Assembly: GCF_048128805.1 (NCBI RefSeq)
Contig: NC_136015.1
Location: 22,840,745 to 22,904,744, forward strand
Source of the DNA: Centroberyx gerrardi
Taxonomy: Eukaryota > Chordata > Actinopteri > Beryciformes > Berycidae
Length of the DNA stretch: 64,000 nucleotides
Reading direction: 5' to 3'
A program made the translations under genes and the position numbers. Below, in pieces: positions 10,548 through 53,400 of this stretch (the stretch's first letter is position 1; each line of letters opens with the position of its first letter). A model generated the notes under the pieces. That model made no database searches and was not told where the DNA came from. It saw only the letters and a list, made by a program, of their open reading frames with translations.

Positions 10548-13144
10548 TCAGAACTGGATCCAGTTTGTAGTGTTCTGTGGTCGGGCTGGAGGAGGGAGTG
10601 AGCTGGAGACAGGAAACACTACATCAACACAGCTTACTTATACTTTTGTGACACAATCATGAACCAGTTTTTGTTCTTTTTAAGCACTGACATAATGTTG
10701 TCATTCATGAAGACAGAACAATAAACGCTCCTCTGCTGTGAACAGCCTGTTATTATAAGACAACACTTTGCTCCACTACAGTGTTTTCAAAGTCAGACCC
10801 AAAAAAGGGCAGCAATGTTGTAGATAATGTGCCCAAACTACAAAATTGTAAGTTTCCCAAAACCTTAAACTCAAAAACCAAATCTTTAATTTGGATAGTT
10901 TGTCCTTCTGTTAAATATGCAATATCACATACAATATATAATGCTACAATACAGAATGAGAGTAGAGATGCAGGACATGAACTTGGTCCAATCCAAAGTT
11001 TAGTTCAATTGAAATCTCTATTAGAAGAAACATCTGTATCTAGCAAGAAAATGTAACCCCAGACTGTGACATCAGTCCAGTGATGCAATGTTTTAAACTG
11101 GACTCTTGACTGTATTTGACGTCCTGTTGTCCCTCTACCAGGTGTGACATCAGTGTGTCTGTGCACCGCTGCCACTCGGGCAAATTCCTGCACATGAATG
11201 TATATATGAATAAATCTATTTTGAAAGGAAATGAGTCGTCTACCTTGCAGGAGTGGAGAAGTCTCCCCAGAGATCTGAACTCGGGTTCGACTGAACCACT
11301 GTGTTCGAGTTACTACTGTCCAGCTCCAGCAGGCAGCCTGGGAGACAACAGAGAGAGAGAGAGAGAGAGAAAAGGAAGAAAAGAAAAGAAAAAAGAGACG
11401 AGAGATGGGAAAAGAGTCAAAGAAATATAGAACAAACCAAAATTAGCTTACAAACTGACACACATTTCACTGATTTTCTGCAGCCCAAGGCTCAGACACT
11501 GAATAGTCATTTAACAGCCATCCATTAAGAGAGAGGTTAATAAAGTAGGTCGCTGCTGTAGGTTAAAGCAGCATTAGGCAAGATTTTTATGGAAAAATGC
11601 ACCTGTCTTATCAGCCTAAATCACAAAGTTGGGGTGCAACAGGGAAGAGCGTCCCATCCCCACTAATTGATTCCCAAAATTAATTCTGGTGTCGGATAGA
11701 GTGAAATACAAAATCCTCCTAAACAGCAACAAGTGAGCGCTCCATCCAGAGAAAGATGGACTCACCAGTGATGGTTCAACCTCTTCTTTTTACAGGCCTC
11801 TTTATCATAATGTGGTTTGTAAATGTTTGATGTTGCATATGTTTAACTTTATATATGTGTATGACTGTGCTACTTTAAGATAGCTTTTAAGGGTTTGACT
11901 CTTCATAAAGTTGTTTTGTTACCATGTGTCCTTTTATGTCTTTTCTTTGTTTTTATTCTCTCTTTGTGAAGCGCTTTGTAAACTGTTGCTATATAAATAA
12001 AGTTTTACTTACTCTTCACCACCTCCACCTCCACCAGACACTTAGAAGAAATAATTTAGGTCTGAGGAGGACAAGATGCAAAGTTGCCTAGTGCAGTTTT
12101 AAACTCTGACTGACAGTGCCATCTACCTGTTGCGCTGCCGCCCGTCTGGGGGACTGTATTGTGATTGGATGAGCCCGACAAGGGGGGCGGCGCTATCTTG
12201 CCTCCAGGTGGCGGTGGGAGGAGTCCGAACCCACCTGACCCCTGTGGGCGGGGCTTATCCCTCTTTTTACCTTGCTAGAGACAGAGAAAAGAAGAACGAA
12301 GAAGCAGTTGAGAAGAATAGAAAAGCAACTCAGATGAGCAGGAAGGTTTTTCAGGGAAGTTCACAATGTACGTACATTCTTACCTTTAGCACTCGGTTAT
12401 CTTTAGATCAAATTCTGAATTAAAACACAGCTGAAAAAAGTTGAAAATATTCCTGAGTCCTTGCAGGCAGTCACTAAGCAAGAGGCTCATTCCAATGTGA
12501 TTTAGACACATGTAAGTTGACATCAGGAGTGCATTTTTTGCAGTTGTTCACAGGTGAAATGTCACAAACTTGTACTATGAACAAAAGTGTCTACTGAGCA
12601 GGAGAGCATTAACTTGATCTTGAGTGTATTAACAAGAGCAAAATGATGACCCTGTTCTTCTGAGGAGCACATGTGGTCCAGGATTGAAACATTTTGGATG
12701 ACAGGAAAAAAAAAAAATTACAAGTGATTTGTGAACATGGACGTCCCAGCTTTGCATCTCAAGTTGCACATGTGCTCCATTTTTAGTTTTATAGAGGCTG
12801 TAAAGTTATTTTTAGGGGCCTACTGAAGCCGTAGCATTATAGGAGTCCCATCATGTCTTTTCAAATTTATAAATCACAACTCCTGGGCCAATGTTTGTCC
12901 TTTATGAAAGCGCTGATCTAGGAACATCACTGTTTATATCATTCCCAGATTGTCTCATTTTATTCTGATTATGATGGTTATGAAAACTGATTCAGGATCA
13001 GCCACTTTCTAACATCATCTCTGGTTCTTACCCCAATGTTGAGTGTGATGGTCTGTCCCTCTTTAAAACCCAAGTCCAGTTTTGGTCCTGAATCCCCCAG
13101 CTGGGCGTTTTTACTGATTTCATTCTCCTGTTTCACCCATCTGT

Positions 13145-13212
<68 letters not shown>

Positions 13213-16200
13213 CATCAGCACTGATGCAGAAATAAACAATGCATTTCAGCAGTTTTCAGAAAAACTGCAGCTAGTAACTTTCCACAAGCGCCTCTCAATG
13301 ACATCTTGCTCTGGCCGGCTGCTTGTGCTGCAGACCGTGACAGGAGAGCAGAGGAGGTAAGATCAATCGGGTCCAATACCACTGTCAATACTTTAGAAGG
13401 AAAACTAATGGCAGCCAGTATATCTGATGATGGAGATTTTCTTTTGTTGTTGTGTGAAAGATAAACACTTTGTTGGAAAGCATCCCTCAAAACTGGCTGC
13501 CGATGAGCAACTGTTTACAGGAAAGTGGAAAATACCTTAGCTCTTAATGTACTTGCTTTTAATCAAACCCATATGCAAGTTTTCAGGACAGAGACACATG
13601 GGACATTTCATTATTTATAACATTTTACTAGAAAGGGAGATAAGAAAAATATTTCCCAGCTTAGACTGAAAGACCTGAACATGAGATGCGATCCTCTGCA
13701 GGGTAAGTAATTGTTATTATGGTAATTTCAGGAGAAGAGAAAGTAATCACTGATTTAATTCACACTTAAATCCCTCAGTCACTGCTTACTTGAAATGGTC
13801 CTGCAGTGCCACGTTGAAATCGAAGGCGTCTCCTCGGTCCCCGAAGCCAACGCCTATGAAAGCACTGCGACCTGCGAGCGGAAGACGATATTAGTATCAG
13901 AGTAGGAGTATCAAACTTCCTACACATTTTTGCTAATCAAATGTATTTTCTATGACTATTCCATGTTATACAAGCATGATGATAAACATTTGTTAGCATC
14001 CATGTTCAAATCATACATATTCGTTTATCTATCTATCACCTAGATTTTGTGTAATGACACTTTAAACACTTTTGGGGCATGTGTCATTCTGCATAACATT
14101 TCTTGGCCCCTTGAAAACACAATTTTCAAATTCTATGACTTTTCTAAGGGCAAGTTCACACCAAACATGTTGAGAAGTTTATTTGAACTCTGGAGCGTTA
14201 ACTCCTTTAGTTCAGTGAGAACAAGTGACAACGATGCCATTTGAGAACATGATCTGAACCAACTACAGGAAATGACCCCAAAACACAAGGGATTATGGGT
14301 AGAAAGAGACGGATGTTGACATCTGACAACCAGCAGCTCCTCATGCTTGGAAAGTCTAGCAGAACAAAATGAAGTCTGGACTGATGCTCATATTCAGCTA
14401 TTTCTTCATGTGTTCTTAACTGGTATGAACACCACAGAAGAAGAGATAGACACGTCCATCATGGTTAGCTAAAGTTATAGAGACTGGAATCAGATTTGTT
14501 TTGAATCTCTCACCTGGCAGGATGACAGGTGACCAAAAATCTGTCCAATAAACAAGCTGCTTGTGAGTCATGTGACTATTGTTTACAAACCCTGGTTCAC
14601 TTGTAATTGGTAGTTTGAACCTAAATGAACCAAATGCAAAAATGCAACAAAGTGAACTTTTCCACTCTGGTTCAGACCACAGAAAATGAATTTGGAGTGA
14701 TTATTATTATCATTACTTGTTTCTTAACATTCCCATCCTCACCGCTGTCATCCTGTATTCGCAGAACAAAGTACCGGCTGGAGTCACTGACTGTTTCCAC
14801 GGCGATGCCAGGATACTCCTGCACCGGCGCCTGGGCAAACAGCTCCCCTGCAGGACGGGAGGGCCAACCACAACACACACATGCAAAACACTGAACCGTT
14901 TATCAAAACGGTGAACCGATGCTGTCAAAAGCAGATGGGCTGTTGCTTGGTGACAAGCCGGTCCACATTTTAGTCATAATCTCACAAGTTTGTCACTAAT
15001 GTCGCTACTGAACACAACACTTGGATGTTGCAATGCCTTATCTGCTAAGATGTCTTACCTAAAACCACATGAATGACACTGATGCAGAAAAGCCCCACCC
15101 ATCTGGTACTTCATACAGGTTAAAACAAACGCTAAGAGATATTTGAAAATGCTGTTTGACCCACGTCTGGTTTGGAGATTTAATACAAATACCAAAACTT
15201 TTATTAAATTTGTCTTTGGCTTCACCATGAGTAACAAGACAAGATGATCAATACAAACCTTGCAAACAACACAGACAATAAAAACAGTAAAATACAGAGT
15301 TACAGAATACGGTGCAGGTTTAGTCTTGGTTGTCATACCTCAACAAAATTAGTAAATCCCCAGTCTCTGGACCTTGAAACTAAATTTCTAATTTAATGAT
15401 ACAAACTGGGGAGGGAGGGGGTGTATATGTTGATTTTGGTTTAAAATCGTTAAAGCACTAGGGACAAAAGACCTTTTAAAAACATTTTTACGTACCTTCA
15501 GCATCCTAAAACACTTCCCAGAAGGTAATAATTGGAATTCATCATGTAATGGGTGAGACTGATCAGTATTGATTTTGTGAGCGTTTTGTCTTGTATACAG
15601 GTCAGTTAGCTGTGACACTGACACTTATACAACGCTGCCGTACCTGAGACTTTGTCCTCCAGTTTGATGAACGCCACCTTGCCCTTGGCTGTGATCCTCA
15701 TTCGGCCGGACCAGTCAGGAGCGTCCAGCTTCCAGTCAGCTGCCCTGCGGACAAACAGTCAGTCCAAATGAGAAACACACCATTTAAAAAACACAAACAT
15801 ATGACACCTACCCTGACAAAATGATTGCTAACATGAAGGTAAAACTCTGGATTGAATATTAGTAAGGTTAGTAGCCATTCTGAGACTTTTACTTATGAAA
15901 CTTAACATTTTACAGCAGCTAATCCTCTGAAATTTTTAAATATTGGGCATAGAACATCAGGGGTTTTTTTCCCATAATGGATATATATAGTGTTTTGGAA
16001 TGGAACATCTATAATAACTAACATCACAACTAGGGCTGCAGCTAATGATTATTTCCATTATCGATTAATAGTCTCCCTAATACATAATGTAACATAACAT
16101 TATATAATAGTGTAACCCATCATTTGAATGGCTTCATTAAAACAGTGTTTTACTAGGGAGATTTTCATCAAGTACCTACATAGTAATATTGTGTACTTAC

Positions 16201-17254
16201 AATACTTTTCCATAGGTTAATACACGGCTTAATACACTGTTAAGTGTTACCAAAGGTGGGTAAACTATTATCTCCAGTTGGTGATCATCATAAAGCAAAC
16301 AACCACCAGTATAAACTCAAATCAATCATTCATAAAAGTATTAATTTATGCTGTTTTACCTGACAAATTTAGATCAATTTTATTATGCTCTCTATGATTT
16401 ATATTATGAATTTTCTACAGCCTGACTAAAAAGCCGGGCAAACTCTATATTCTGCAAATAAAACGGTCGTTAAAATGATCCTTGAATAATAAAGAATATA
16501 CTTAGATTTGACCATTTCACTACATCCCTGGTTATAGCTATCCATTTTGTACCAAGTCATATCTCAGATGGGGGCAAACTCTTATTAGATGGGGGTCTGG
16601 GGGTCTGAAGTGGATCTATTTGGGGGTCCTTGACATGAAAAAGTCTACTTAAAAATCAGAGCTATTCCCAATCCAGACTAAACAGATGTCATCCATGTTT
16701 CCAGTGTGCCTGTCAGTCACAGTGGAGGGACAAAAGCTGTTGACATTTATCCATAACAACAGCCTGAAGCAAAAGTGTCCAAATTGAAAAGCTGCACTCT
16801 TTAATTCAATAGTTTCACTGCGAAAAGAGGACATCAAAGCTGTCACCAGAGCCAGTGGGCTAGCTGGATCTGTCCTGGCAAACCGCCCACATCGACCGGC
16901 ACGATATCTCTGTCTGTCAATCGATCCGCACTGTTAGCACAACGCAGCACGGAAAAAGCAAACCGTTTCTGCATATTTACAATGTTCAGAAACGGATAAC
17001 CATCTCCGGTGCTGACACAACGTAAAGCCTGTATCCCTGTCCGTGGTTTGAAAGCATGTACCGGCAGCAAGCAGTGGAAGTAAAACACCAAACACCGAGC
17101 AATAACGAGCACACTGTAAAGCCGTATTGTAGCGCTGGTGTCGACCGACCGTTATTTACCTGTATCCGCGGTTTGTAGCTCGCGGCGGGATGCGATAAAC
17201 GTTGACATCAGGTTTAACGCACAGGATCGACTCGTACTCGCCCTCGGCCGCCAT
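10548..17254 (-). CDS. necap1: NECAP endocytosis-associated protein (NECAP1-like), 8 coding exons, complete
   Basis: Adaptor-associated protein of clathrin-coated vesicles; the family binds AP-2 appendages and regulates AP-2 at the plasma membrane. Exons on the minus strand: 17160-17254, 15644-15744, 14743-14847, 13790-13871, 13032-13140, 12127-12274, 11244-11337, 10548-10602. All junctions are GT/AG and the phases join into 789 nt, 262 aa plus stop (human NECAPs are about 263-275 aa). The N-terminal ~135 residues form the PHear (PH-like) domain, with [49 protein letters not shown] and [21 protein letters not shown] Pro-rich linker with LLPPPPGGK follows, then the internal WGDF (W237-F240) and the C-terminal WIQF (259-262), both WxxF AP-2 ear ligands. 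The LLELDS and DLWGDFST stretches favour NECAP1 over NECAP2; that choice is inferred. Start chosen at the family N-terminus (MAAEGEYES). Divergently paired with the epsin gene. Confidence 0.93.
11965..12004 (+). mobile_element. Retroposon 3'-tail fragment
   Basis: Short piece with gaagcgctttgtaaac and gctatataaataaag, the tail type of the element at 2641-3228, within a NECAP intron. Confidence 0.45.
13149..13206. repeat. (AC)29 tract next to the NECAP exon 5 acceptor
   Basis: An uninterrupted dinucleotide run. On the gene's strand it reads (GT)29 and stops 8 bases before exon 5 (13032-13140), taking the position of the polypyrimidine tract. Confidence 0.95.
14144..14690 (+). mobile_element. 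Dispersed repeat family R1, copy 1
   Basis: About 550 bp shared with copies at about 31238-31845 (inverted) and 40470-40890. Shared landmarks are gggattatgggtagaa, ctcctcatgcttggaaag, gaacaccacagaagaagag, gagactggaatcagattt and gagtcatgtgact. Class not recognised; a non-autonomous DNA transposon is plausible. It lies in NECAP intron 3. Confidence 0.65.
16032..16080. mobile_element. Short transposon-end fragment
   Basis: tagggctgcagctaatgatt followed by attatcgattaat matches a terminal sequence very common in fish genomes. Only about 48 bp remain, within NECAP intron 1. Confidence 0.35.
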
Positions 17255-18730: not shown

Positions 18731-21578
18731 ATGACGTCCTCCATGCTCCGCCGCCAGCTGAAGAACCTGGTCCAGAACTACTCTGAGGCCGAGGTCAAGG
18801 TAAAGGAAACTAAAGGTTAAATCTAAGACTAATAGGGCAAACGGCTAGACAAAACCTCCACAGTAATGAGCACAACAAGCTCAAGTCTCAAGTTACGCTG
18901 AAGTGAATTGCGGTGAGTTTGCACATTGAGATTTCTCATCAGTCCTGAACCTAATGTTCTGGAGCCTGGGAAATGGGGAGATATTATTCCCTCTTGCTTT
19001 AATGCTGATCTGATGTGACATGATCAGTAACAACATGGTAGAAGAGTTTATCATTTCTCCCTTTCCAGTAATATGGGATCATGTTAAGTTAGAGGGGGAC
19101 TTGTAACACTGCAGCCAGTCCAACGATTCAGACTGATTTCTGGTCACAAGCCAGCATCTTTAACCTTTAGGCTACCACCACCCTGTACCTACTGTGCCTG
19201 AGTTGCACTCTAAAGGTGATGATACACAGGCAATTTTTTTTTTAGAAAAGCAAATTTGGCCTAAATAGTTACTGAGAAATTTGACAGTTGGAGGAGTGAA
19301 AATGGATGAAATAAGATAATGCTGCCACCAATGCCATCTTGGCCTCCTCTTACCCACTGAAAATTTAATAATTTAATAATTTTATCGAGGTTATCCACTG
19401 GAATTTCATAACATATGTATTATAGGCTCATTTATGGCTCTGGCATCTAACAGCTAGCTAGCTTGCTAGATTAAATGTTATATAAAGCATTTGGAAAATT
19501 TGGAAAATTCTGGGCTGACAACAGGTCACCTGACTAATTTTCTTGTCTCAGATTGGTTGATGTTGAAACCTTGCCAGCAAAGCTTGCTTTCCGATCAAGC
19601 TTGGCTAGATTTCAAACTGCTACATATATTATATATTTCCAAATTTGCCCCAAGTTTGCCCTAAAGGTTTCCCTGTGTGTCATCACCTTAACTTCTTTCC
19701 CCCTCTGCCTCTCTCAGGTGAGAGAGGCGACGTCCAACGACCCCTGGGGTCCGTCCAGCTCTCAGATGGCTGACATCTCAGACCTGACCTACAATGTGGT
19801 GGCCTGCAACGAGATCATGACGATGCTGTGGAAACGCCTCAAAGACGACAAGAACTGGAGACACATCCACAAGGTGAGGGGCGGAGGAGGGAGGGGAACC
19901 TGAACAACATAGCTTTATTGACATTAATCAGCACCTCATGGAACATAATCTCTCCTTTCCATCACATCAGATGATTTATTTATTTGGTCTTGAGTGAAGA
20001 AGTAAACTGCAGTACCACATCTGGTGTAAAGTTACTGCTGTCACCAACTCAGACATGAGTCCATTCAAACTCTGCCAGCCATGTGACTTTGTATATGTGT
20101 CTACTACTATCATTGTATCTCTTTTGTATAGGAGTTATTTCTTACTGAATCGTCATTACTATAAACACAGAGGTTTAGAATTAGTTCCTTTAGCTGTTTT
20201 GTCTCCAACAGTCTCCAACTCTGATAGAAAACCTGATATAGCAATTTATGTATTGTCTATTAGAGAAGGAATAAAAACTGTTAATAGCATCAGTCTTTGT
20301 ACGCATTGTGTGCATTGCTAGTTCACTTTAGTTTATTTTTTTAGCTGTATACAGTATATTTGTTTGTTTATATTCATGCTTTTTGTTTTCCCTCTTAGTC
20401 CCTGACCCTGCTGGAGTACCTGCTGAAGACCGGAGACGACCGCGTGCTTCTGAAAATGAAAGACAACATCTACATCGTCAAAGCTCTCACAGAGTTCCGC
20501 TTTGTAGAAAAGGATGGCAAAGATCAGGTGATGCTCATGTTGTGGTGATGCTGCTACCAAACTGCTGCTGTTCAGAAAACATATTTACTGTATGTAAGTT
20601 GCTAATTCTGTGTGATACATGACTGAACCTCTAGGCAACACTCCAAGATTCAAACCACATTTAGCCTAATTCTTTTTTTCTCACTTAAATTCAAATATGA
20701 TTGGGGTAAAAAACTCATATCTTAGTAACAAGAGCTTGGCATTTACTCTTGAACCTGCCTTGATTAGACCCAAAGGGCTTGGGTCAGGCTGAATTTCTCT
20801 TTAGTTTCACTAAGCTCTGGTTTGGCTTTTGCTCAGGTTCAAAGATATTGTGGAAAAATACTCTAATCAGTTTATTTTTTGATGGTAAAATCAGGATTTA
20901 GTGGGTTTGGTCTTGTAAGAAGCTGTCCTCCCCTTTGGGTTTGCTTCAGGTTTCGAAATTGTTCAGGTTCAGGTGGGATTGGGCTCAAATTTTCAAGCTC
21001 CCAAGTCAAGCTCTAATGTGAGCAAGTGTGTGTCTCCTCTCCCAGGGTGGGAATGTGAGAGAGAAGGCTAAGGTCGTCCTTGTTCTCATGGAGGATGATG
21101 AGAAGCTGAAGGAGGAGAGAGACTTTGCCGTCAAGACCAGAGAGAAGACGTCCAAAAGTGCAACTGGTGAGCCTTTCTGTCCGTCACTGTTCCCCCACTT
21201 AACCTGTAACACATCTGTTATGTCCAGGTCAATTTACTTTGTGGCAGAATATCTTTATAAAGTTGGTTTTATTCACACTTTGCATTTTCAGATCAAACTG
21301 GTTGAAGTCAGGGCCAGATCAGCATGCGGTGCAATTCCAAGTGCTAACCCTAACCCTAACAACAAACAATATAAAATGAGTCAGTCATAACATAAAGGAT
21401 TAAAAAGATGTGAAAAGTAGGCCTGTATGTTGATTAAATGATTAAACACGGGGTAAGAAGAGCAGTGCAAGTAAATGATAAAATGTAACAAAGTAGTTTA
21501 GGTAAAGGCAATACCAGAAATGTATGACAATTCAAAAAAATATGCTATCCTCATAATTTACACTCACTCACTCACTCA

Positions 21579-21611
<33 letters not shown>

Positions 21612-24600
21612 TTCACACTCTCGTTCCCATCCCCTCTCACCAGCCTCATCCTCCGACAACCCAAAGGACCCCAACTACAAGCCCTGCTACGTCCCCGGGA
21701 CCTCTGGCCTCCCCTCTCTAGACAACATACCCTCAGTAGCTGACTTGGCTGCTTCCTTCGCCGCCCGCAAAGAAGAGCGGCTGAGACAGGAAGCTGAGAA
21801 GAAAGATGCGGAGAGGAGGGTGAGCACACAGCTATCACAGCAAAGACAAGGGAACTGTACAACAGCATAAAAACGCTCATTCTTGAAGCCTTTTGATTCC
21901 AGTCATGGATGGTATCATTATGATGCATCCTGCCTATCCAGATTATTTTTTGAAACTATGACAGGAAACTGAAAACACACACTAGAACCAGGCCGCAGGT
22001 TCAATACCCACAACAGACACTGTGTATCCTGTCGGTGTCTGAGCAAGACATTGAACTCCTGCCTGCTAGTTCATTGTATGTCGCTCTAGATAAGAGCTTC
22101 AGCTTATCGCCTAAAATGTAAATGTGAGCATATTTCTTAGAGGTGTTGTAATGCCAGAGATCTGCTTATAATAGTCAACTATAATAGACAACTAAGACCC
22201 TACCAACTGATTACTTGACTAGGAGAGAACAGGTAATTAATTTGATTTGATTTGATTTGGATCTCTTTTAGCCTATTGGCTAATCTTCCAAGAGTCCACA
22301 TTAAAAACATTTAAGCATACAATAATTCATATTATACAACACATAATTATTGACACACATATATCATATACATACATGCATGACACCTATAACCTACATA
22401 CATTGACACTTATCCCGTATGGACCTACATATATACACATATTAATCTACATGTGTTCACTCTACAAACCTACTGACAGTGCAATACAATAGTGTGATGA
22501 TAACTACATTTAAATCTTGAAATCTTGCAATCAACAATCCAGCTGCCGTACTGTTCTTGAGTGAGTTATTGTAATGAATTCCATAATTTAACAGTTCTGA
22601 AAATAAAAGTCCGTCTTCCCATTTCAGTTTTTATTTTTGGTAGTACATAATGATTTTTATCTCTTATTCTTATGTTAACTTGATGTTTATCACGTACTAA
22701 TAGCAGTTTGTCCTTAATACTAACTGGCTTTTTAAACTTTTGAATTTTTGAAATTAGTACTATAGAATGTTGTCTCACATGCTCTACTACTGTGGGCCAT
22801 CCCATTGTAATATGTAGTTCACTCACTCCTTTCTCAAACCCACACCTTAAGACCATTCTTGCTGCCTTGTTAAGTGTGATCTGCAGTCTCCACATATATA
22901 TATTAAAAAAAAAAAAGTTTTGTCACACACCGGCTCAAACCATCTAAAACGTATTTTCCTCTTTATTTGTTTGCATTTGCGATATCCTAGTCCAAGATGA
23001 CTGAGGACGAGCTGCAATGGGAAGACGCGGGCAAAACTGACAAGCCAAAAGCAGGAGCCTGGGGAGGAGAGCCATCAGAGGAGGAGGAAGAGGAGGAGAA
23101 AGCAGGCCCATGGGGGGCTCCCAAAGAACCCAAAGAGGCCACCGACCCATGGGGCGCACCGACGAAACCAACCACGACGACGACTACCACAACAGCCAGC
23201 AATGATCCCTGGGGGGTTCCAACCAAAGCTGAAGAAGACCCGTTTGCAGCGCCAAAATCTGACGAAGATCCATTTGTGGTGACAAAGAATGGGGAAGATC
23301 CCTTTGCAGCACCAACAGATGAACCCGATCCATTTAGTGCACCGAAGGACGGAGAAGATCCGTTTGGGCCTAAAAACGACTCGGATCCCTTCAGTGCACC
23401 AAAAGGTGACCCGTTCGGCGCACCGAAAGATAGTTCAGACCCGTTCACCGCACCGAAAGACAAGGAGGATCCATTTGCTGCTCCAAAGGATAAACCAGAT
23501 CCCTTCAATTCCACTAATGATGACCCATTTAATACACCGAAAGACGATCCGTTCAGTACCCCAAAAGATGATCCGTTTAATGCTTCAAAGGACGATCCGT
23601 TTAATGCCCCCAAAAACGACCCGTTCAATACCCCAAAAGACGACCCGTTCACCGCACCAGCGTCGTCACCCACTAAAGAGGACCCATTTGCGGCACCAAC
23701 ATCCCCTAAAGAAGACCCCTTCACTGCTCTGACAACACCGCCTAAAGAAGACCCCTTTACTGCTCCGACAACACCGCCTAAAGAGGATCCTTTCTCCACG
23801 CCGTCAAACCCTCCTAAAGACGACCCCTTCGCTGCACCGACGACGCCCCCTAAGGAGGACCCGTTCGCGGCGCCGTCCAGCCCGCCCAAAGATGTCGCCT
23901 CAGATCCTTTCAATGCCCCTCTGGCGAGTCCGCCCAAAGGCAACTCGGACGCATGGGGCGCCCCGGCCAGCTCACCGCCCGCCGCAGCGGCGGACCCCTG
24001 GGGGGCGCCATCTGCTCCACAGATGGAAGCGAAGGCCGGAGATCCCTGGGGGGACGCTGCCTCGCCCACCAAGACTTCGGATCCATTTGGGGACGAATCC
24101 AAACCAGACAGCGACCCATGGGGAGCCCCAGGTGAGAAGAGATGGAGTGACAAAGATGATGGAGCGAAATATATATTATTGAACAACAATGACATCTCAT
24201 GTTTTTGAGTTCTGCTTCAGCAAAGGGAAGCAAGGGAGATGTCAGAAGTAGAGGATAGGCAGTTATGCTCTACGTATAAAACATGACCCAAATATCTTTT
24301 AATGTGTAAGAGCTTCACCAAATGTAACAAATCTATTAATACATTTTGTTGTGGCCATAGTTTAGTTAGTGAAAATGCAAAATCATTTAAATCTAATCAT
24401 CTCTATTTGAAGTTCATGGCAGTCGACATTTATCGGTGACCACTAGGACTTGCAACATTGACAGGTTTCTGGCACAGCCCCCATGTCCCACCCCTTGCAG
24501 GACGGTGGCCTGTAATGGACACAAACAAAGTCACATTTTCACAATAGAGACGAGTAAGCTAGCTAATTAGAGCAGAGATCCAACAGAAATGTCTAGTGAA

Positions 24601-26727
24601 GAGATAATATATCACCGTGCAACAATAATAATACGGCTTTTGAAATTAAATGTCTATATTCTTACTTATTGGCACTTTAACCCAGCCTGGACTACTATCC
24701 CCCCCATTAGCTGCAGCTCCAGCCAGTACAGATGATGCGTGGGGTTCGCCTGCTCCCCCCTCAGACTCCGCCCCCTCTAGTGACCCCTTTGGAGACGGGG
24801 CGTCTAAAACCAACGCTGCTAGCACTGACCCTTGGGGTGCGCCAAGCAATGCACCTAGCAACGGCACAGGTATGTCAAACTTTAAATCCTGTCTGGGTGT
24901 ATGTTTCAGTGATCCATCCATCTATCCATCCATCAGTGAATAACAGTAAAGGCTTATCATCTGTTTCATACTCAATGCTGCTATGCTTTACTCTAATTTA
25001 AATCTACTTAATTAATCAATCAATTCAGTAGTCTGCTTAATTTTGTGCTTGTTTTTAATGGATAGCAGGTGCTTCCTTATAATGCCAGCTGACTGAATGC
25101 TTGGCTGAGAACGGTAACACTCCAAAATAAACTGTGTGTGCCTGTGTATGTGTGTGTGTTTGTGTATGAACACACACACTTGTGCTTGCTTACCTTTAAG
25201 CTCATTTGCATGTGACCCCTTCATCCTGTTTCTCCATTTCATCTTCCATCTTCCCATCAATCAGCTGCCTCCTACCGACTTTAATCAATTAACCTTCTCT
25301 TCCGCTCTGTTCTCTCTTTCCCCCCTCCTCGGCCCGGGCCCGCCCCCCACCAATAGAAAACGCCTTTTAGAGTAGAATTGGACCTTTATTTCATTCACAG
25401 GAAAGCGAACAGCGCGGGAAGAGGAGACGTCTAGGAAGGCCGCAGCGTTCCTGGGCTCTGCCGGAGCGTCGCTGGTCGACTTGGACTCTCTCTTCTCCTC
25501 GAACCCCAAACCCAAACAACCCCCCCTCATCAGCACGCTCGCCCCCCAGACACAAGCCACCGGTAAGGAGAGGTAGAGGGAGGAGACGCTACACCCCTTC
25601 TAAATAGACCTGGGGCGAAAATACCAAGGTTTCAAATGCTTGAATTATCTTGAGGTGCGCTTGATTCGACAGACAAATCACTCGTGAGATACTAAAAATC
25701 AACCACTCGTTTTTCAAGTATTTCAAATGCATTCGACTGCTGTTTTGCTCAAGTCTTCAGTCCAGAGAGAGAGAGAGAGAAGGTAGAGACAGAGTAGAGA
25801 CTATGACAAATATATATTTCTCAATAGGTTTGTATGAAAAGCTTGTTGTGATTATGTGTTCTGCCTAGCCATCCCTCCCCCTGTGATCCCACCGTAGTGC
25901 ATAGCTGTTGTTATGTGTGTGTGTGTGTACAGTGTGTGTGAGCATCAGTGAACTATTGTTATTAACCCCTCTGTAGAGACTAGTGCATATTAACCCGTGG
26001 AGATGTAACTCTTCTCATCCCTCTCTCTGCTCTGCTTTGCTACGTTCTCTCTGTCGGAATGCTTCGTACTGTAAACCCCTCCTCCCTCCTTCCTCATCTC
26101 CTTCCCTCGATCCCTCCTCCTCCTAACTTCCCAGGTGTTTTGAAGGCCACAGCCATGGCTTGTGGCCCTGTGGTCAGATCCATGCCTGTTGCAGGGGCGT
26201 CCCTCCTCCCCGCAACAACATCACCCCTACCCTCCGGTCCCTTTGGCTCCATCCCTGGCTCCTCCTGTGGCGCGCCCCGTCCCAATTTTGGAGCCCCTAA
26301 TTTTGGAGCCCCCAATTCCTCCATGGGAGCTCCCCTATTTCAGCTACCGTCCAGTCCCATAGGAATGTCTCATTCTGGCCTAAATATGCCTGTAGTGGCT
26401 CCTCCATGTTTAGGAACCGGAATGGTACAGTCCACTCCTATGGGTGGGATTCCTCCAATGGGACTTAACATGAATCCCTCCTGTGTGGGAGTGGGAATGA
26501 TGCAGTCTGGATCTATGGGGGGGAATCCTCTGATGGCTCCCCCCTATTTGGGAATGGGAATGGCACAGCCCAGTTTCATTGGAGGGAATCCTCAGGCAGG
26601 AGCGGTTCACCTGGGAGGATCCACCGCCCCGGCGGGAGGTGGGGTCCCCCTGCAGCCCCTGCAGCCCCTGCACCCCTCGCTGCTGGGTGACACCGCTCAC
26701 GCAAACAACAATCCATTCCTCTTCTGA
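18731..26727 (+). CDS. Epsin-family endocytic adaptor with ENTH domain and expanded DPF array, 9 coding exons, complete
   Basis: Epsins bend PI(4,5)P2 membranes and link AP-2, clathrin and EH-domain proteins. Coding exons: 18731-18799, 19718-19873, 20399-20527, 21046-21166, 21644-21819, 22991-24131, 24711-24869, 25401-25562, 26135-26727. All use GT/AG and sum to 2706 nt (901 aa); mammalian epsins are about 550-650 aa. ENTH (about 1-150) keeps the lipid-contact residues R7, R8, K11, R25, N30 and the block EVKVREATSNDPWG; it is one residue shorter before NWRH. Exon 6 and the next exon carry 25 DPF and 6 DPW motifs from about residue 270 to 640. A clathrin box LVDLD lies at 675-679, and a single NPF at 897-899 ends the protein (NNPFLF). 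I find no ubiquitin-interacting motif in the usual place after ENTH. The ENTH sequence is divergent from EPN1, EPN2 and EPN3 as I recall them, so no symbol is given. Confidence 0.92.
21985..22130 (+). mobile_element. tRNA-derived SINE, copy 1
   Basis: Has a B-box-like GGTTCAATACC near the head, gagcaagacattgaac in the middle and a tail of the form gataagagcttc...cctaaaatgtaaatg. It lies in epsin intron 5. A sister copy is at 54095-54245. Confidence 0.6.
22239..22905 (-). mobile_element. LINE 3' fragment with reverse-transcriptase ORF tail
   Basis: On the minus strand an open frame (22566-22895) encodes LQITLNKAARMVLRCGF... and ...FIFRTVKLWNSLQ, the sort of C-terminal tail that follows reverse transcriptase in non-LTR elements. 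A 3' UTR and an (AAATC)n-type tail at 22239-22259 follow. 5'-truncated and dead; it sits in epsin intron 5 in the opposite orientation. Confidence 0.65.
22991..24131 (+). other. Large epsin exon encoding the DPF/DPW motif array
   Basis: This 1141-nt exon encodes 24 DPF and 5 DPW motifs in about 380 residues. The spacing is irregular (10-13 residues) at first, becomes a strict 8-residue period (DDPFNTPK-type) in the middle, then about 14 residues (PPKEDPFTAPTT-type). DPF and DPW are ligands for the AP-2 alpha appendage. An acidic run of seven Glu and a run of eight Thr precede the array. Confidence 0.9.
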
Positions 26728-27805: not shown

Positions 27806-29049
27806 ACCAATGCGTGTATGTATTGTGTCTTGTGTAAATGGTGGAAGTAATCACAGATGAACCTTGAAATATATACTGTATATCAGAGTGTTACAATCAT
27901 GAGTAATTATTTATTGATCTATTTATTGATTGATTTATTACTTGATTATTTATTAGTTTATTTGTTTATGCAGCGCTTGGCTTCCAACAGATGTAATTGA
28001 AACAAGAGAAGTTCAGGTCACATTCCTCGCCATGTCATTTGTCGTTGTACGCGATCAGACAGATTGACCTGAAGGTTACAGTCACACATGACCACAATGT
28101 GATTGGCTGTTTTTTGTTTAAGAACTGATTTGATTGGATGATGCACATGGGGATCCTGCTGCATTATCAATCAGCCCAATAACCAATGGTGGCTTTATCC
28201 TCTGCTGTTTAGGTTCGTAGTTGTTTTTGGATTCATTCTGTAATTTAATGTGCTCTCTGTATCTCCTGGCATTAGAGAAGAAACAGAAGTGTATTATTGT
28301 ATTAAATTTAGCTGTAGGCTAAATAAAAACCGAATTTGAACATATCATTTTCTTTCATGTGCATGCTGTCTGATCTGATCATCCTGTGTGAGCGTATGTG
28401 TGTGTGTATCTGCCCTTTACATCTATCTTAATGCGTGAGTGAAATGAAATATTTGGTCAAATACTTGTATGAAAAGGCAACGCACAGTATGTAGACGTGA
28501 TCTTTGGAATTATAAGGTTCTATCTTATCTGTCATTTTGGTTGAAAACTAGCGATATCACAACTACAGATAGATCTAGATTTTTGAAAATGTTTAACTGG
28601 GTACATATTGACAGTAAAAGGATTATATCTGTTTTGTTCAATAAATCAAAATCACCCTGAAAGAAAACAGAACCATCTACTTCCAAGACTTCATCACGCA
28701 GTTTTGACCAGTTGGTGTTCTTTGTGTTTTCTGGGCCTGTTCAGATCTCAGAACATCTTACACGTGTTTTCATCTCCTTTTTAAATGTGATCTTTGATGG
28801 GGAAAATGGACTGGAAGACACTCGAGTTTAACTTGTAGGAATTATAGTAGAGATGAATCATTATGATGACTTGTCCATATAGCTAATTATTACTCTGATT
28901 TAATTTTGTATGAAAGCAAATGACTTTATTTTACTGTGTATTTAAATTTGAGGCTGTGTTGTAAACTGTGACGGTACACATTTGAGAAATAAAATGATTC
29001 AATAAGTGAAACTGTTGTATCTCTGACATGTAGTTTTGACAATCTACAG

Positions 29050-29331
29050 CAGTGATTCTCAACCTTTTTCATATAAAGAACCCCTAATTTAGTCCACATT
29101 AGAGCCACAGACCCCCATTTGATGAGATTTTGTCTCTCGGACCCAAATCTGAGAATATTTTTATTGTTAGATATGATTTTGTCCAGAATTTCATGAAGGA
29201 AGGAATGAGAATTGTGTTAACTTCTTGTAAATTAAATAATGAAGTTTAACAATTCATCAATTTCCTGGGGACCCCCTGGAACACCCTCAAGGACCCCTGG
29301 TGGTCCCCGGACCCCACATTGAGAACCACTG
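29050..29331 (+). mobile_element. hAT-type MITE family H1, copy 1
   Basis: Starts CAGTGATTCTCAACC and ends TTGAGAACCACTG, with a perfect 8-bp duplication atctacag at 29042-29049 and 29332-29339. Non-coding, 282 bp. Confidence 0.88.
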
Positions 29332-29492
29332 ATCTACAGAATTAAAGTCTATCCTCATAGTCTTCAATGTATTTGCTTCTTATCAGGCATGTTTCAGTTC
29401 CAGTATTTTGATGGAAGTGTAGCTGCAGTTTGTGAATTCATTGGAATTCTTATAAATTCAATTCTTTTTTGCTTACTATTACCACAAGAGGG

Positions 29493-29538
<46 letters not shown>
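29493..29538. repeat. (AC)n microsatellite between two H1 copies
   Basis: About 23 AC units, 13 bp from the left end of H1 copy 2. Confidence 0.9.
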
Positions 29539-29539
<1 letters not shown>

Positions 29540-29550
29540 ATATTGTAGTC

Positions 29551-29872
29551 CAGTGATTCTCAACCTTTTTCATATTAAGGACCCCTAATTTAGTCCATAT
29601 TAAGACCACGGACCCCATTTGATGAGATTTTGACTCTCGGACCCGAATCTGAGAATATTTTTATACAATTTTGTCCAGAATCTCATGACTGTCTGTATTG
29701 TAGGTAGAGAGATAACAGTGAAACTATCATCAAAACAGTCATTCTTCTACATTCTCTAATTGTGTTCACTTCTTGTAAATGAAATAATGAAGTTTAACAA
29801 TTCATCAATTTGCTGGGGACCCCCTGGAACCCCCTCAAGGGTGGTCCTCGGACCCCATGTTGAGAACCACTG
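29551..29872 (+). mobile_element. hAT-type MITE family H1, copy 2
   Basis: Same ends as copy 1 (CAGTGATTCTCAACC ... TTGAGAACCACTG). Target duplication ttgtagtc at 29543-29550 and ttctagtc at 29873-29880, 7 of 8 matching. Longer than copy 1 by an internal stretch around 29680-29755. Confidence 0.85.
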
Positions 29873-31237
29873 TTCTAGTCAATCACTCAGGAAACTGCCT
29901 GATTCTTAACAGTAACATCTCACCAGTCCAGATGAAAGCACTCTTAAATCTCTTTTATCAACTATCTTTCGAGAAAGACCATACATGTTCTACAAAACTG
30001 TCCCTGGTTAAATAAAGGCTAAAAAAGTAATTTTCCACTCGTTTCTATGGCATTGTGTTAAAGTGAAACCATGTTGGTATGACATAATGCAACACCCTTT
30101 CTAAACTTATTCACACTCACTTTCCACTGGATCCTGAGTTACATCTTATAGGGAACTTCACTAATATTAGCGAAAATCTTCTACAATGAAAATGAAATGT
30201 CTAGATATCGCTCTTTGCGTGGCCAAAAGATGCTTTGCAGTAAGACGGAAGTCTAATTGTCATTTCTCAGCTGGACTTTGGCTCTCAGAGGAGTGAGCTG
30301 GAGGTCACTAGAGAATCGGGTGAGGAGGGCAGGAAATTTAGGACCGACTGTTGAGCCGGATGTGACTGGGGATTCCCCCCTTCACAGCTTACTGACTAGA
30401 AGAAAAAAAAAGGAGATTGGGAATTTGGTGTGATAAGTCAGCCTGTTACACTCGGACAAATCAGTCAGTTGTGTATTTTTTGACACTTTGATTTCACAGT
30501 GTTCAGTTCTCACTTCCAATCACTTTGGATTGTTTGTGTGGAAAACAACTCAGGATGAGAGAGTGGCAGTTGGACAGTTTATTCAATCTGCTGGTTGGGA
30601 GCCAAGGAACTCAAAATCTGGACGATTACACAGAGTTTTATAGTGTTGAATATTCATGATTATGTTTTCCATTATGTCTTTTACATTTCTTCCTCAACAT
30701 TTAGAAAAGATGGCTGTTGTAATGTAATGACAGCTAACAGCTTTGATCGAAGCTGCTTACTTCTACTCCTTACTTCCCCCAAAAGTTCTGGATCCATTCT
30801 TGGTCATAATAATTGCATTTCTTTATTCTTTTAACTTTAACACGTGTTGTTAGAAAGTTAGCTAACGCATTCTTATTTACAGGAAGCAACATACAGAATA
30901 GCAGTTCCCCATTCTTGGCCTCCACAACAACTTTTCTGTCTCGGACTTGTCTTGATCTTATTCACCCATCGCTGGATGTTGGCTCAAGTTTTTCTCCACA
31001 GCACTACAAACGATTTAATGGATTACACCTGTGTATAAGATGTAATGGACCTCAACCTTCTATGCATTGATTAGTCAAAATCCTACACATTGATTAGCTG
31101 GATGTTGAAGGGTTTGGTACAGATCTCAAATAGATCTATATCTCTGCTGATCCTTACGAAACTCCTTAAGACTCGACTAACGTTGGTCTTGATTACAGCC
31201 ACTGCTGCCCACTCTGCAGTTCCAGCAGCTGGTGATC

Positions 31238-31845
31238 AAGGGTGTGAACCTACAGTTTGTTTTCTTTGGTCTGAATCAAAGTGGAAAAGTTTACTTTGTT
31301 GCATTTTTGTATTTGGTTTGTTTAGGTTCAAAGGTTCAAACTGCAAGTGAACCAGGGTGTGTAAACAAAAGTCACATGACTCACAAGTAGCTCGTTTATT
31401 GGACAGAGTTTTGGTAACATGTCATCCTTCCTGGTTAGAGATTCAAAACAAATCTGATTCCAGTCTCTGTAACTTTAACTGAGCATGATGGACTTGTCTG
31501 TCTCTTCTTCTGTGGTGTTCATACCAGTTAAGAACACAGGAAGAAATAGCTGAATATGAGCATCAGTCCAGATTTCATTTTGTTCTGCTCGGCTTTCCAA
31601 GCATGAGGAACTGCTGGCTGTCAACATCCGTCTCCTTCTACCCATAATCCCCTGCATTTTGGAGTGGGTTCCTGTGGTTGGTTGGATTACTTTCTAACTC
31701 TCATTTTCAGGCATCTCGGTGACGTTATTTGGTGCCACCAGAGTTCGAATGGCATCGTTCTCACCTGCCCGGATGAGCCAAACTAAAGGAGTAAACGCTC
31801 CAGAATTTGAATAAACCGCTCCAAACATTGCTTCTCTAACCACTA
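31238..31845 (-). mobile_element. Dispersed repeat family R1, copy 2 (inverted)
   Basis: Reverse complement of the 14144-14690 family with the same landmarks. It carries extra sequence around 31690-31790 (with ggtgccaccagagttcgaatgg) that is missing from copy 1. Confidence 0.65.
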
Positions 31846-31865
31846 CGCCAGTGAGTTTCAAAATC

Positions 31866-32103
31866 ACCATTATTTCATTTACAAGAAGCTAACACAATTA
31901 GAGAATGTAGAAGAATGACTATTTTCAATGCTATCTCTCTACCTACAATACAGATATGGGATTCTGGACAAAATCATAAAATCTAACAATAAAAATATTC
32001 TCAGATTTGGGTCCGAGAGACAAAATCTCATCAAATGGGGGTCCGTGGCCCTAATGTGGACTAAATTAGGGGTCCTCAATATGGAAAAGGTTGAGAATCA
32101 CTG
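31866..32103 (-). mobile_element. hAT-type MITE family H1, copy 3 (inverted, truncated)
   Basis: The right edge, GGTTGAGAATCACTG ending at 32103, is the complement of the H1 left end. The other end is missing, so the copy lost one terminus by deletion. Confidence 0.75.
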
Positions 32104-32373
32104 CACTACCCCCCTATTCATTTGTCCTCTTCCCTAAATCGTGTCTGTGCTGCTTGGTGTTTAGAGGGGTAGAACAGCAGAGAACAGCGCAGACCATGAG
32201 AGCAGAACCAATGCGGGTCTCATCTGTCACACTCATCCCAGGCCAAGCTGTCCCATACCATGCTGTCAAATTAATCACTATAGGAGGACTAGGCACGGGG
32301 GTCATGGCTTTACTGAGAGGCAGAGAGCAAGGGAGGTTACGAGTGAGAGAGAAGGAGAGATGAAGAAAGCCGA

Positions 32374-35801: not shown

Positions 35802-43526
<7,725 letters not shown>

Positions 43527-52200: not shown

Positions 52201-52892
52201 TTTCCCTTTGTGCCCATATCAATCCAACCCTTCATCCATCCATCCATCCATCCCTTACTTTCCCGTGATGCCTTCATCCAGAATCCACCCATCAAAATAA
52301 CAATCTAACCCACCCTTCATCCATCTAAATCCACCAGTTTATCAACCCATCCCATTCCTTAGGGATATAAAGGAAGCTAGACACACTTGAACTCAGTTTA
52401 TCCACCGTTATATTTGTTAGACAGAGCTGACACACCTTTCTAAGCTGCTTGACTTACGTTGACCGACCTTTTTATTTACCACTACATCACTGCCCTTCCT
52501 CCATAACTCACCGTGCAGATTTCCTTGACCTCTGACTTGGTGATGTATCCGTTCTTGTCCACGTCGAACAGCGAGAAGGCCCATTCCAGTTTCCTGGTGG
52601 TCTTCCCCGTTGACGTCATGTGGAGAGCGATGATGTACTCCTTGAAGTCCAGCGTACCATCGTCGTTGGTGTCGAAGGAGCGGAAGACGTGCTGGGCGTA
52701 CGTATGGGCGTCGCTCTCGGGGAAGAACTTGCTGTAGATGGACTGGAACTCCTCTTTGCTGATGCGGCCTGTTGGACACTGCCTCTTGAAGTTGTCGTAC
52801 CACTGGACGATCTCCGTCTCTGAGAACTTGGTGTTGAGCTTCAGATCCTCCAGGATCTCCTTGGACACTGCACCGCTCTTGGTGTTACCCAT
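49255..52892 (-). CDS. rcvrn: Recoverin/visinin-type neuronal calcium sensor, 3 exons, complete
   Basis: Photoreceptor EF-hand protein; recoverin binds and inhibits rhodopsin kinase in a Ca2+-dependent way. Exons: 52512-52892, 50045-50156, 49255-49340 (minus strand), GT/AG, 579 nt, 192 aa. MGNTKSGA gives an N-terminal Gly2 myristoylation signal. EF1 is degenerate but keeps the conserved Cys39 (QCPTGRISKEEF). EF2 (74-85, DTNDDGTLDFKE) and EF3 (110-121, DVDKNGYITKSE) are intact loops. EF4 is degenerate. The tail ends LRLIQYEPGK, without the longer Lys-rich end of mammalian recoverin. The 192-aa length and the AEGEFIKGVM and ending sequence resemble avian visinin, the cone form absent from mammals, more than rod recoverin. 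That subtype call rests on remembered sequences. Intron 2 is largely filled by a foldback transposon. Confidence 0.93.
49555..50020. mobile_element. Foldback DNA element filling recoverin/visinin intron 2
   Basis: Long inverted arms of about 110 bp: CAG..aaacatttctc, ggcagagct, ctggaggcagaaa and ggttgagttaaacc at the left, each complementary to the right arm. The interior is non-coding. It occupies 466 of the 704 bp of the intron; its right end is 20 bp from the exon 2 splice donor. Confidence 0.75.
50950..50969. repeat. Poly(G) run of 20
   Basis: Uninterrupted G homopolymer in the first intron of the recoverin/visinin gene. Confidence 0.9.
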
Positions 52893-53400
52893 TGTTGGTG
52901 TTGCTGCTGGTGGTGTTTGAAAGCTATATCAATGCGTGAATTCGTAGTCCTTCACCTCTTCTAGGCCGATTAGAACAACACTTCAGCCTGGTAGTTTTGT
53001 GCGCTGTGTTGGCTCCTCTGCTTTATGAAAGTGATAAACAGAAGAGTATTCCTGATGTACGCTTGGCCCCAGCCCTGGCCTGCACCTCAGCCCACGAAGA
53101 CGAATACTGTGAAAAGAGGAGAGAAGCCGCTTGGTAAGCTCATTAAGCCCATCAACCATCGGTAATGTCAGTCTGAGACGTCACAGAGAGGGGTCAACAG
53201 AGGTCAAAGTTAAAGTGCGTGTTTATAGCGATTTAAAGTGTGATGCTTCAGCCAGTTTTGGCTAGTTCTCTACCTCTCTACTATTTTAAAAGGGGCAGCA
53301 GATCAGTTTGGCATTTGGCACACAAGAGGGAGGAGGGAGCTTTTTATGAGAGATTAGAGCAGAGCTGGTAACTTCCACATCGATGGCATCTTGTGCAGAC
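52893..53400 (-). promoter_or_regulatory. Upstream region of the recoverin/visinin gene with CRX/OTX-like sites
   Basis: On the gene's strand CTAATC occurs near 52965 and CTAATCT near 53352, matching the YTAATCY core bound by photoreceptor CRX/OTX factors. No TATA box was found. Short matches like these arise by chance, so the assignment is tentative. Confidence 0.25.

Follow-up and report, generated by a model that had tools for sequence, protein, structure and literature searches.

A DPF-rich epsin apparently lacking ubiquitin-interacting motifs in Centroberyx gerrardi, probably a fast-diverging duplicate of epn1

Introduction

The closest described systems to the gene reported here are Eps15, epsin 1 and the epsin of Dictyostelium. 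Eps15 ends in a tail with fifteen DPF (Asp-Pro-Phe) motifs (PMC4731787, PMC7787433), which according to modelling accommodates up to 10 AP-2 alpha appendages (PMC7787433). Lone DPF motifs have a weak affinity (about 200 µM) for the alpha appendage of AP-2, with strict spacing being unimportant (PMC4921775); high-affinity binding to the mu-homology domain (muHD) of FCHo/SGIP1 requires DPFs that are 2-3 residues apart (PMC4921775; PMC4731787). Ubiquitin-interacting motifs (UIMs) are not universal in epsins, since the Dictyostelium epsin is an ENTH adaptor without them (PMC4161027), and the epsins of early-branching eukaryotes likewise lack cargo-binding regions (PMC4824007). Here we analyze an epsin gene of the fish Centroberyx gerrardi, which lies in a stretch of 64,000 nucleotides (nt) of contig NC_136015.1 (positions 22,840,745 to 22,904,744, forward strand). 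This whole stretch is hereafter called the window, and positions are given in its coordinates.

We propose, with a probability of roughly 0.6, that the gene is a fast-diverging, UIM-less duplicate (ohnologue) of epn1 with a DPF array under selection, and that its product would most likely act as an ENTH-anchored multivalent ligand of AP-2. Like epsin 1 and the epn1 gene at a second locus of the same genome (C12), the window epsin has an ENTH domain, DPW units, a clathrin-box-like motif and a C-terminal NPFL/NPFLF; judged by eye, three intron positions in the ENTH region are identical to those of C12 epn1, and the borders of the tail exons are similar. Unlike these two, it has no detected UIM, and it contains 25 DPF motifs compared with none in the hand-trimmed tail exons of C12. 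The long disordered tail with many DPFs resembles that of Eps15, but the window epsin is anchored by an ENTH domain instead of EH domains and has no DPFs with 2-3-residue linkers. It resembles the Dictyostelium epsin in its apparent lack of UIMs; here, however, this lack would be secondary, the four other classical epsins of the genome having kept their UIMs. Among the matches listed for the open-licence literature, no title or abstract start dealt with vertebrate epsins that are rich in DPF or lack UIMs, or with fish epn1 duplicates.

Gene structure and motif content

The spliced gene model spans positions 18731-26727 on the plus strand (the coding end counts the stop codon) and consists of nine coding exons separated by eight GT-AG introns. 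The product of 901 amino acids has the length given in an earlier note on this DNA, which had been made from the letters of the sequence and had called the gene an epsin. This identification was borne out. The N-terminal ENTH domain is encoded by exon 1 (18731..18799, start codon and helix zero), exon 2 (19718..19873), exon 3 (20399..20527) and exon 4 (21046..21166, end of the domain). It matches Pfam PF01417 with an E-value of 1.1e-49 (168 bits, cut-off 24), and its closest solved structure is that of rat epsin (E 2e-64); no match was found in NCBIfam, a prokaryote-oriented library. We take R7, R8, K11, R25, N30, R63, K69, H73 and K76 to be the phosphoinositide-contact positions of epsin, and all nine residues are identical between the window epsin and rat epsin 1. 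At the other end of the protein, exon 8 (25401..25562) encodes the single clathrin-box-like motif of the tail (LVDLD, within LVDLDSL), and exon 9 (26135..26727, including the stop codon) encodes the C-terminal NNNPFLF with the single NPF.

All 25 DPF and all six tail DPW motifs fall inside 22991-24869, as the earlier note had counted. Exon 6 (22991..24131) contributes 24 DPF and five DPW, and exon 7 (24711..24869) one of each; a seventh DPW, in NDPW at residue 31, is located inside the ENTH domain and outside this interval. The tail thus carries 31 motifs of the AP-2 appendage type, in agreement with the claim that they exceed thirty and are mostly DPF. When the 741-residue tail was shuffled (2000 trials), DPF occurred 0.55 times on average and four times at most. 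The strict 8-residue period described in the note is real, as seven DPFs at residues 387-435 follow each other in six consecutive spacings of 8, yet it is only one of three registers. A 10-residue register covers residues 300-340 and 357-387, and a 12-residue register covers residues 459-507. Tandem Repeats Finder reports the 8-residue block as a 24-nt array on the plus strand at 23498..23651 (6.4 copies, 74% matches) and the 12-residue block as a 36-nt array on the same strand at 23697..23866 (4.7 copies, 77% matches). The linkers of the array measure 5-12 residues.

With regard to the motif surroundings, x-[AT]-P follows 18 of the 25 DPFs, G-[AVS]-P follows eight of the nine tail DPW/GPW/DAW motifs, and DPW-type motifs border the DPF block on either side. 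The simplest origin of the array would be the growth of an ancestral DPW exon with replacement of W by F. Ten serine/threonine-proline (S/T-P) sites are present in residues 291-530. Of the 25 DPFs, 11 have such a site no more than 9 residues upstream, whereas all DPFs of the 10-residue blocks lack one at this distance. Because exon 6 is 1141 nt long (remainder 1 when divided by 3), its simple skipping would shift the reading frame; splicing inside the exon may occur. On the antisense strand of this exon, 409 codons are open (22987-24216), perhaps as a side effect of the recurring DPF codons.

Relationship to epn1

A search of the genome for the ENTH family returned at least seven loci: the window gene (C19), four classical epsins (C12, C7a, C7b and C3) and two CLINT1-like genes (C11 and C16). 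The labels epn1, CLINT1-like, NECAP and recoverin, as well as any assignment of C7a, C7b or C3 to epn2 or epn3, are provisional, being based on family hits and resemblance, while the names that Pfam itself gives for the neighbours are PF07933 (DUF1681), GSG-1 and EF-hand. The ENTH domain of the window epsin is only 61-64% identical to those of the five epsins compared. It is identical to rat epsin 1 at 97 of 152 positions, the C12 copy at 143 of 153. In a relative rate comparison with rat as outgroup, 47 changes were unique to the C19 copy versus 2 to the C12 copy (chi2 41.3). Judged by its sequence, the C12 epsin is a slow-evolving, little-changed epn1.

A block comprising NECAP, epsin, GSG1 and recoverin genes is present on both C19 and C12. 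The shared NECAP, GSG1 and recoverin neighbours, together with the matches between tail exons, indicate that the two loci are a duplicated block, which arose most simply through the teleost genome duplication, its presumed date. Within this block, recoverin (84%) and a NECAP exon (95%) have diverged less than the ENTH domain (64%). Three tail exons of the window epsin were compared with the paralogues, and each obtained its top raw score against C12, with shuffle z values of 12.4 (exon 8), 4.7 and 3.3. In tail exons trimmed by hand, with ENTH excluded, the numbers of DPW/DPF motifs were 7/0 in C12, 5/0 in C7a, 2/1 in C7b and 3/4 in C3.

Apparent loss of the UIMs

UIM-encoding exons are present in all four other classical epsins detected (C12, C7a, C7b and C3). 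In the window gene their place, between the ENTH domain and the DPW/DPF region, is occupied by a different exon of 58 residues (exon 5, 21644..21819). UIMs were looked for with Pfam and with the core pattern phi-x-x-A-x-x-x-S, which we take to represent the motif. Pfam, whose detection of UIMs is weak (see below), found none in the window epsin. The core pattern had no match in residues 151-260, whereas five of five control peptides were positive. A longer UIM core was absent from all three plus frames across the gene span (18.7-26.8 kb); at the C12 locus it gave five matches, namely two UIM exons and three chance hits. The window epsin has apparently lost its UIMs, and we infer that binding of ubiquitin cargo was lost as well.

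Age of the array and alternative explanations

The earlier note had taken the 8-residue block as a sign that a 24-nt unit had recently multiplied in tandem, possibly with polymorphism in copy number. The two arrays reported by Tandem Repeats Finder would be in line with this explanation, as would the shared codons and the closely similar unit pair of the 12-residue block described below. Synonymous codons were compared within each block wherever units share an amino acid, and the null distribution was obtained by permuting the synonymous codons of the array exon 5000 times. In the 8-residue block, 41 of 85 synonymous codons were identical (permutation mean 37.3, P = 0.23), and between neighbouring units 11 of 29 (P = 0.79); adjacent 24-nt units showed 62-79% identity. 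The two 10-residue blocks were also at chance, with 17/33 (P = 0.12) and 7/22 (P = 0.87) shared codons. The 12-residue block exceeded chance (27/52, P = 0.020; neighbours 15/25, P = 0.012), mostly because of one 36-nt pair (residues 459/471) that is 92% identical and has the same synonymous codon at 9 of 11 positions. This pair alone looks recent. Within the DPF motifs, the codons for D are split 13:12 and those for F likewise 13:12, and no triplet one substitution away from DPF was found in residues 296-530. Silent sites at chance in the 24-nt block combined with intact DPFs fit purifying selection on the motif, but do not fit recent growth. The latter was rejected for the 24-nt unit, on the basis of the neighbour identity, the chance-level synonymous codons and the length of the longest exact repeat (18 nt), and a recent expansion is a quite improbable account of the array. 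Instead, the array seems to consist of old DPF copies that selection has preserved. An assembly artefact was likewise rejected, since the longest exact repeat in the array exon, 18 nt, is hard for an assembler to collapse or inflate. Hence, the observation made in the earlier note is confirmed, whereas its interpretation is partly supported: the epsin with 31 AP-2-type motifs stands, the recent 24-nt growth does not, and the apparent UIM loss, the ENTH divergence and the block duplication were not covered there.

The array could also be a ligand of the FCHo/SGIP1 muHD in the manner of Eps15, besides or instead of AP-2. Its 8-residue block indeed consists of seven DPFs with 5-residue linkers, and two DPFs with a linker of this length form a low-affinity site in Eps15; however, a longer Eps15 fragment with this weak site showed no clear binding, and another adjacent pair of Eps15 DPFs failed to bind (PMC4731787). 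None of the 24 linkers in the window epsin is as short as the 2-3 residues needed for high affinity, the minimum being 5, so that a high-affinity site of the Eps15 type was rejected and the muHD explanation as such is unlikely. Linkers of 5-12 residues make the array suited to AP-2, and only the 8-residue block could form a weak muHD site. Less probable still is a role of the array chiefly as a disordered spacer whose steric bulk aids membrane bending, with the DPFs being a by-product of repeat growth. The 226-residue segment is rich in Pro and Asp, and a mode of action through steric pressure has been proposed for the tail of epsin (PMC7787433), but the lack of DPF decay by single substitutions, in a region where spacers and synonymous sites vary, argues against this role. 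The apparent UIM loss and the fast ENTH domain would also be expected of a degenerating duplicate without function. This explanation is hardly credible in view of an open frame of 901 codons with eight GT-AG introns, the retained lipid-contact residues assumed above and the intact DPF motifs.

Several points weigh against the gene being a UIM-less epn1 ohnologue with a selected DPF array. The ENTH tree leaves the window sequence unplaced on an end branch of 0.6, and its grouping with EPN1 is neither supported nor rejected (approximately unbiased test, p-AU 0.27); the ohnologue claim therefore rests on synteny and on the tail exons. Among these exons, the one with the clathrin box has a z value against C7b of 12.3, nearly equal to that against C12, and exon 7 reaches a score of 68 against C12, barely above the best of 200 shuffles (65). 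The G-A-P context is found after only one of the seven DPW motifs of the C12 tail. In the Pfam control, which used seven of the 9 UIM pieces seen in the paralogues, five were recovered, all below the curated cut-off, and two were missed. In addition, the evidence comes from a single genome and from sequence alone.

Proposed function

If the gene is an epn1 duplicate with a selected array, it would have retained the membrane-binding ENTH domain, the clathrin-box-like motif and the C-terminal NPF, while the ancestral DPW exon would have grown to encode a long series of DPFs, with D-P-F held by selection and codons and spacers drifting. The ENTH-anchored protein would then most likely bind the AP-2 alpha appendage in a multivalent manner, without capturing ubiquitin cargo, and AP-2 would be gathered or retained at coated pits, as by the DPF tail of Eps15. 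We infer AP-2 binding and an effect on coats from the motifs, and the very high avidity and coat clustering suggested in the earlier note are plausible; motifs spaced 8-12 residues apart can probably not all be filled simultaneously. The S/T-P sites near the DPFs may serve as control points. Mitotic modification of epsin, including phosphorylation, impairs its binding to AP-2 and clathrin (PMC4161027).

A more far-reaching version of this proposal is offered tentatively. After the teleost duplication, one epn1 copy might have been rebuilt from a ubiquitin-cargo adaptor into an ENTH-anchored, Eps15-like clusterer of AP-2, by losing its UIM exons and by growth of its DPW exon to 25 selected DPFs in three consecutive registers, and the block with 5-residue linkers might engage FCHo/SGIP1 weakly. 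If confirmed across fish, the gene would represent a natural experiment that splits the capture of ubiquitin cargo by epsin from multivalent AP-2 engagement. With a little-changed epn1 in the same genome, a single animal would allow tests of how the number and spacing of motifs affect the assembly of coats. The gene would also illustrate how selection can maintain an array of short linear motifs whose founding repeats diverged long ago.

Neighbouring genes and other observations

NECAPs are AP-2 accessory proteins. The NECAP-like gene of the window (PF07933, E 8.4e-60) extends over 10548..17254 on the minus strand, with limits set by eye from open frames, and its product ends in NWIQF. It is arranged head-to-head with the epsin gene, and about 1.5 kb separates the two start codons. 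The observed/expected ratio of CpG between the two genes is 0.51 for the whole intergenic stretch, but the 1-kb bin at 17001 has a value of 0.94. No NECAP was found in the first 60 kb examined around C12 epn1; a search for the NECAP family located the C12 copy at C12:12342609-12343470, on the same strand as epn1 and approximately 26 kb upstream of its start. One exon of this copy is 94.6% identical to that of the window gene over 37 residues, compared to 71.8% over 39 residues for a third NECAP (C5). The remaining NECAP alignments crossed introns and were not comparable.

A GSG1-like gene near C12 epn1 is 73-94% identical over three exons to its counterpart in the window, and the recoverin gene near C12 epn1 is 83.6% identical over 122 residues, and 83% over 129 residues, to the recoverin-like EF-hand gene at 52485-52928; both have the same order and orientation as in the window. 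A tRNA scan and an Rfam scan (gathering threshold) of the window were both empty. In the window, the GSG1-like gene ends with an exon (42834-43451) that encodes a Gly/Val/Met repeat not found in the C12 copy. Within 28929-32134, around 29 kb and 32 kb, several stretches resemble in translation a stretch of C12 that lies about 14 kb upstream of epn1; the identity is as high as 100% over 38 residues, and they look like members of a dispersed repeat family.

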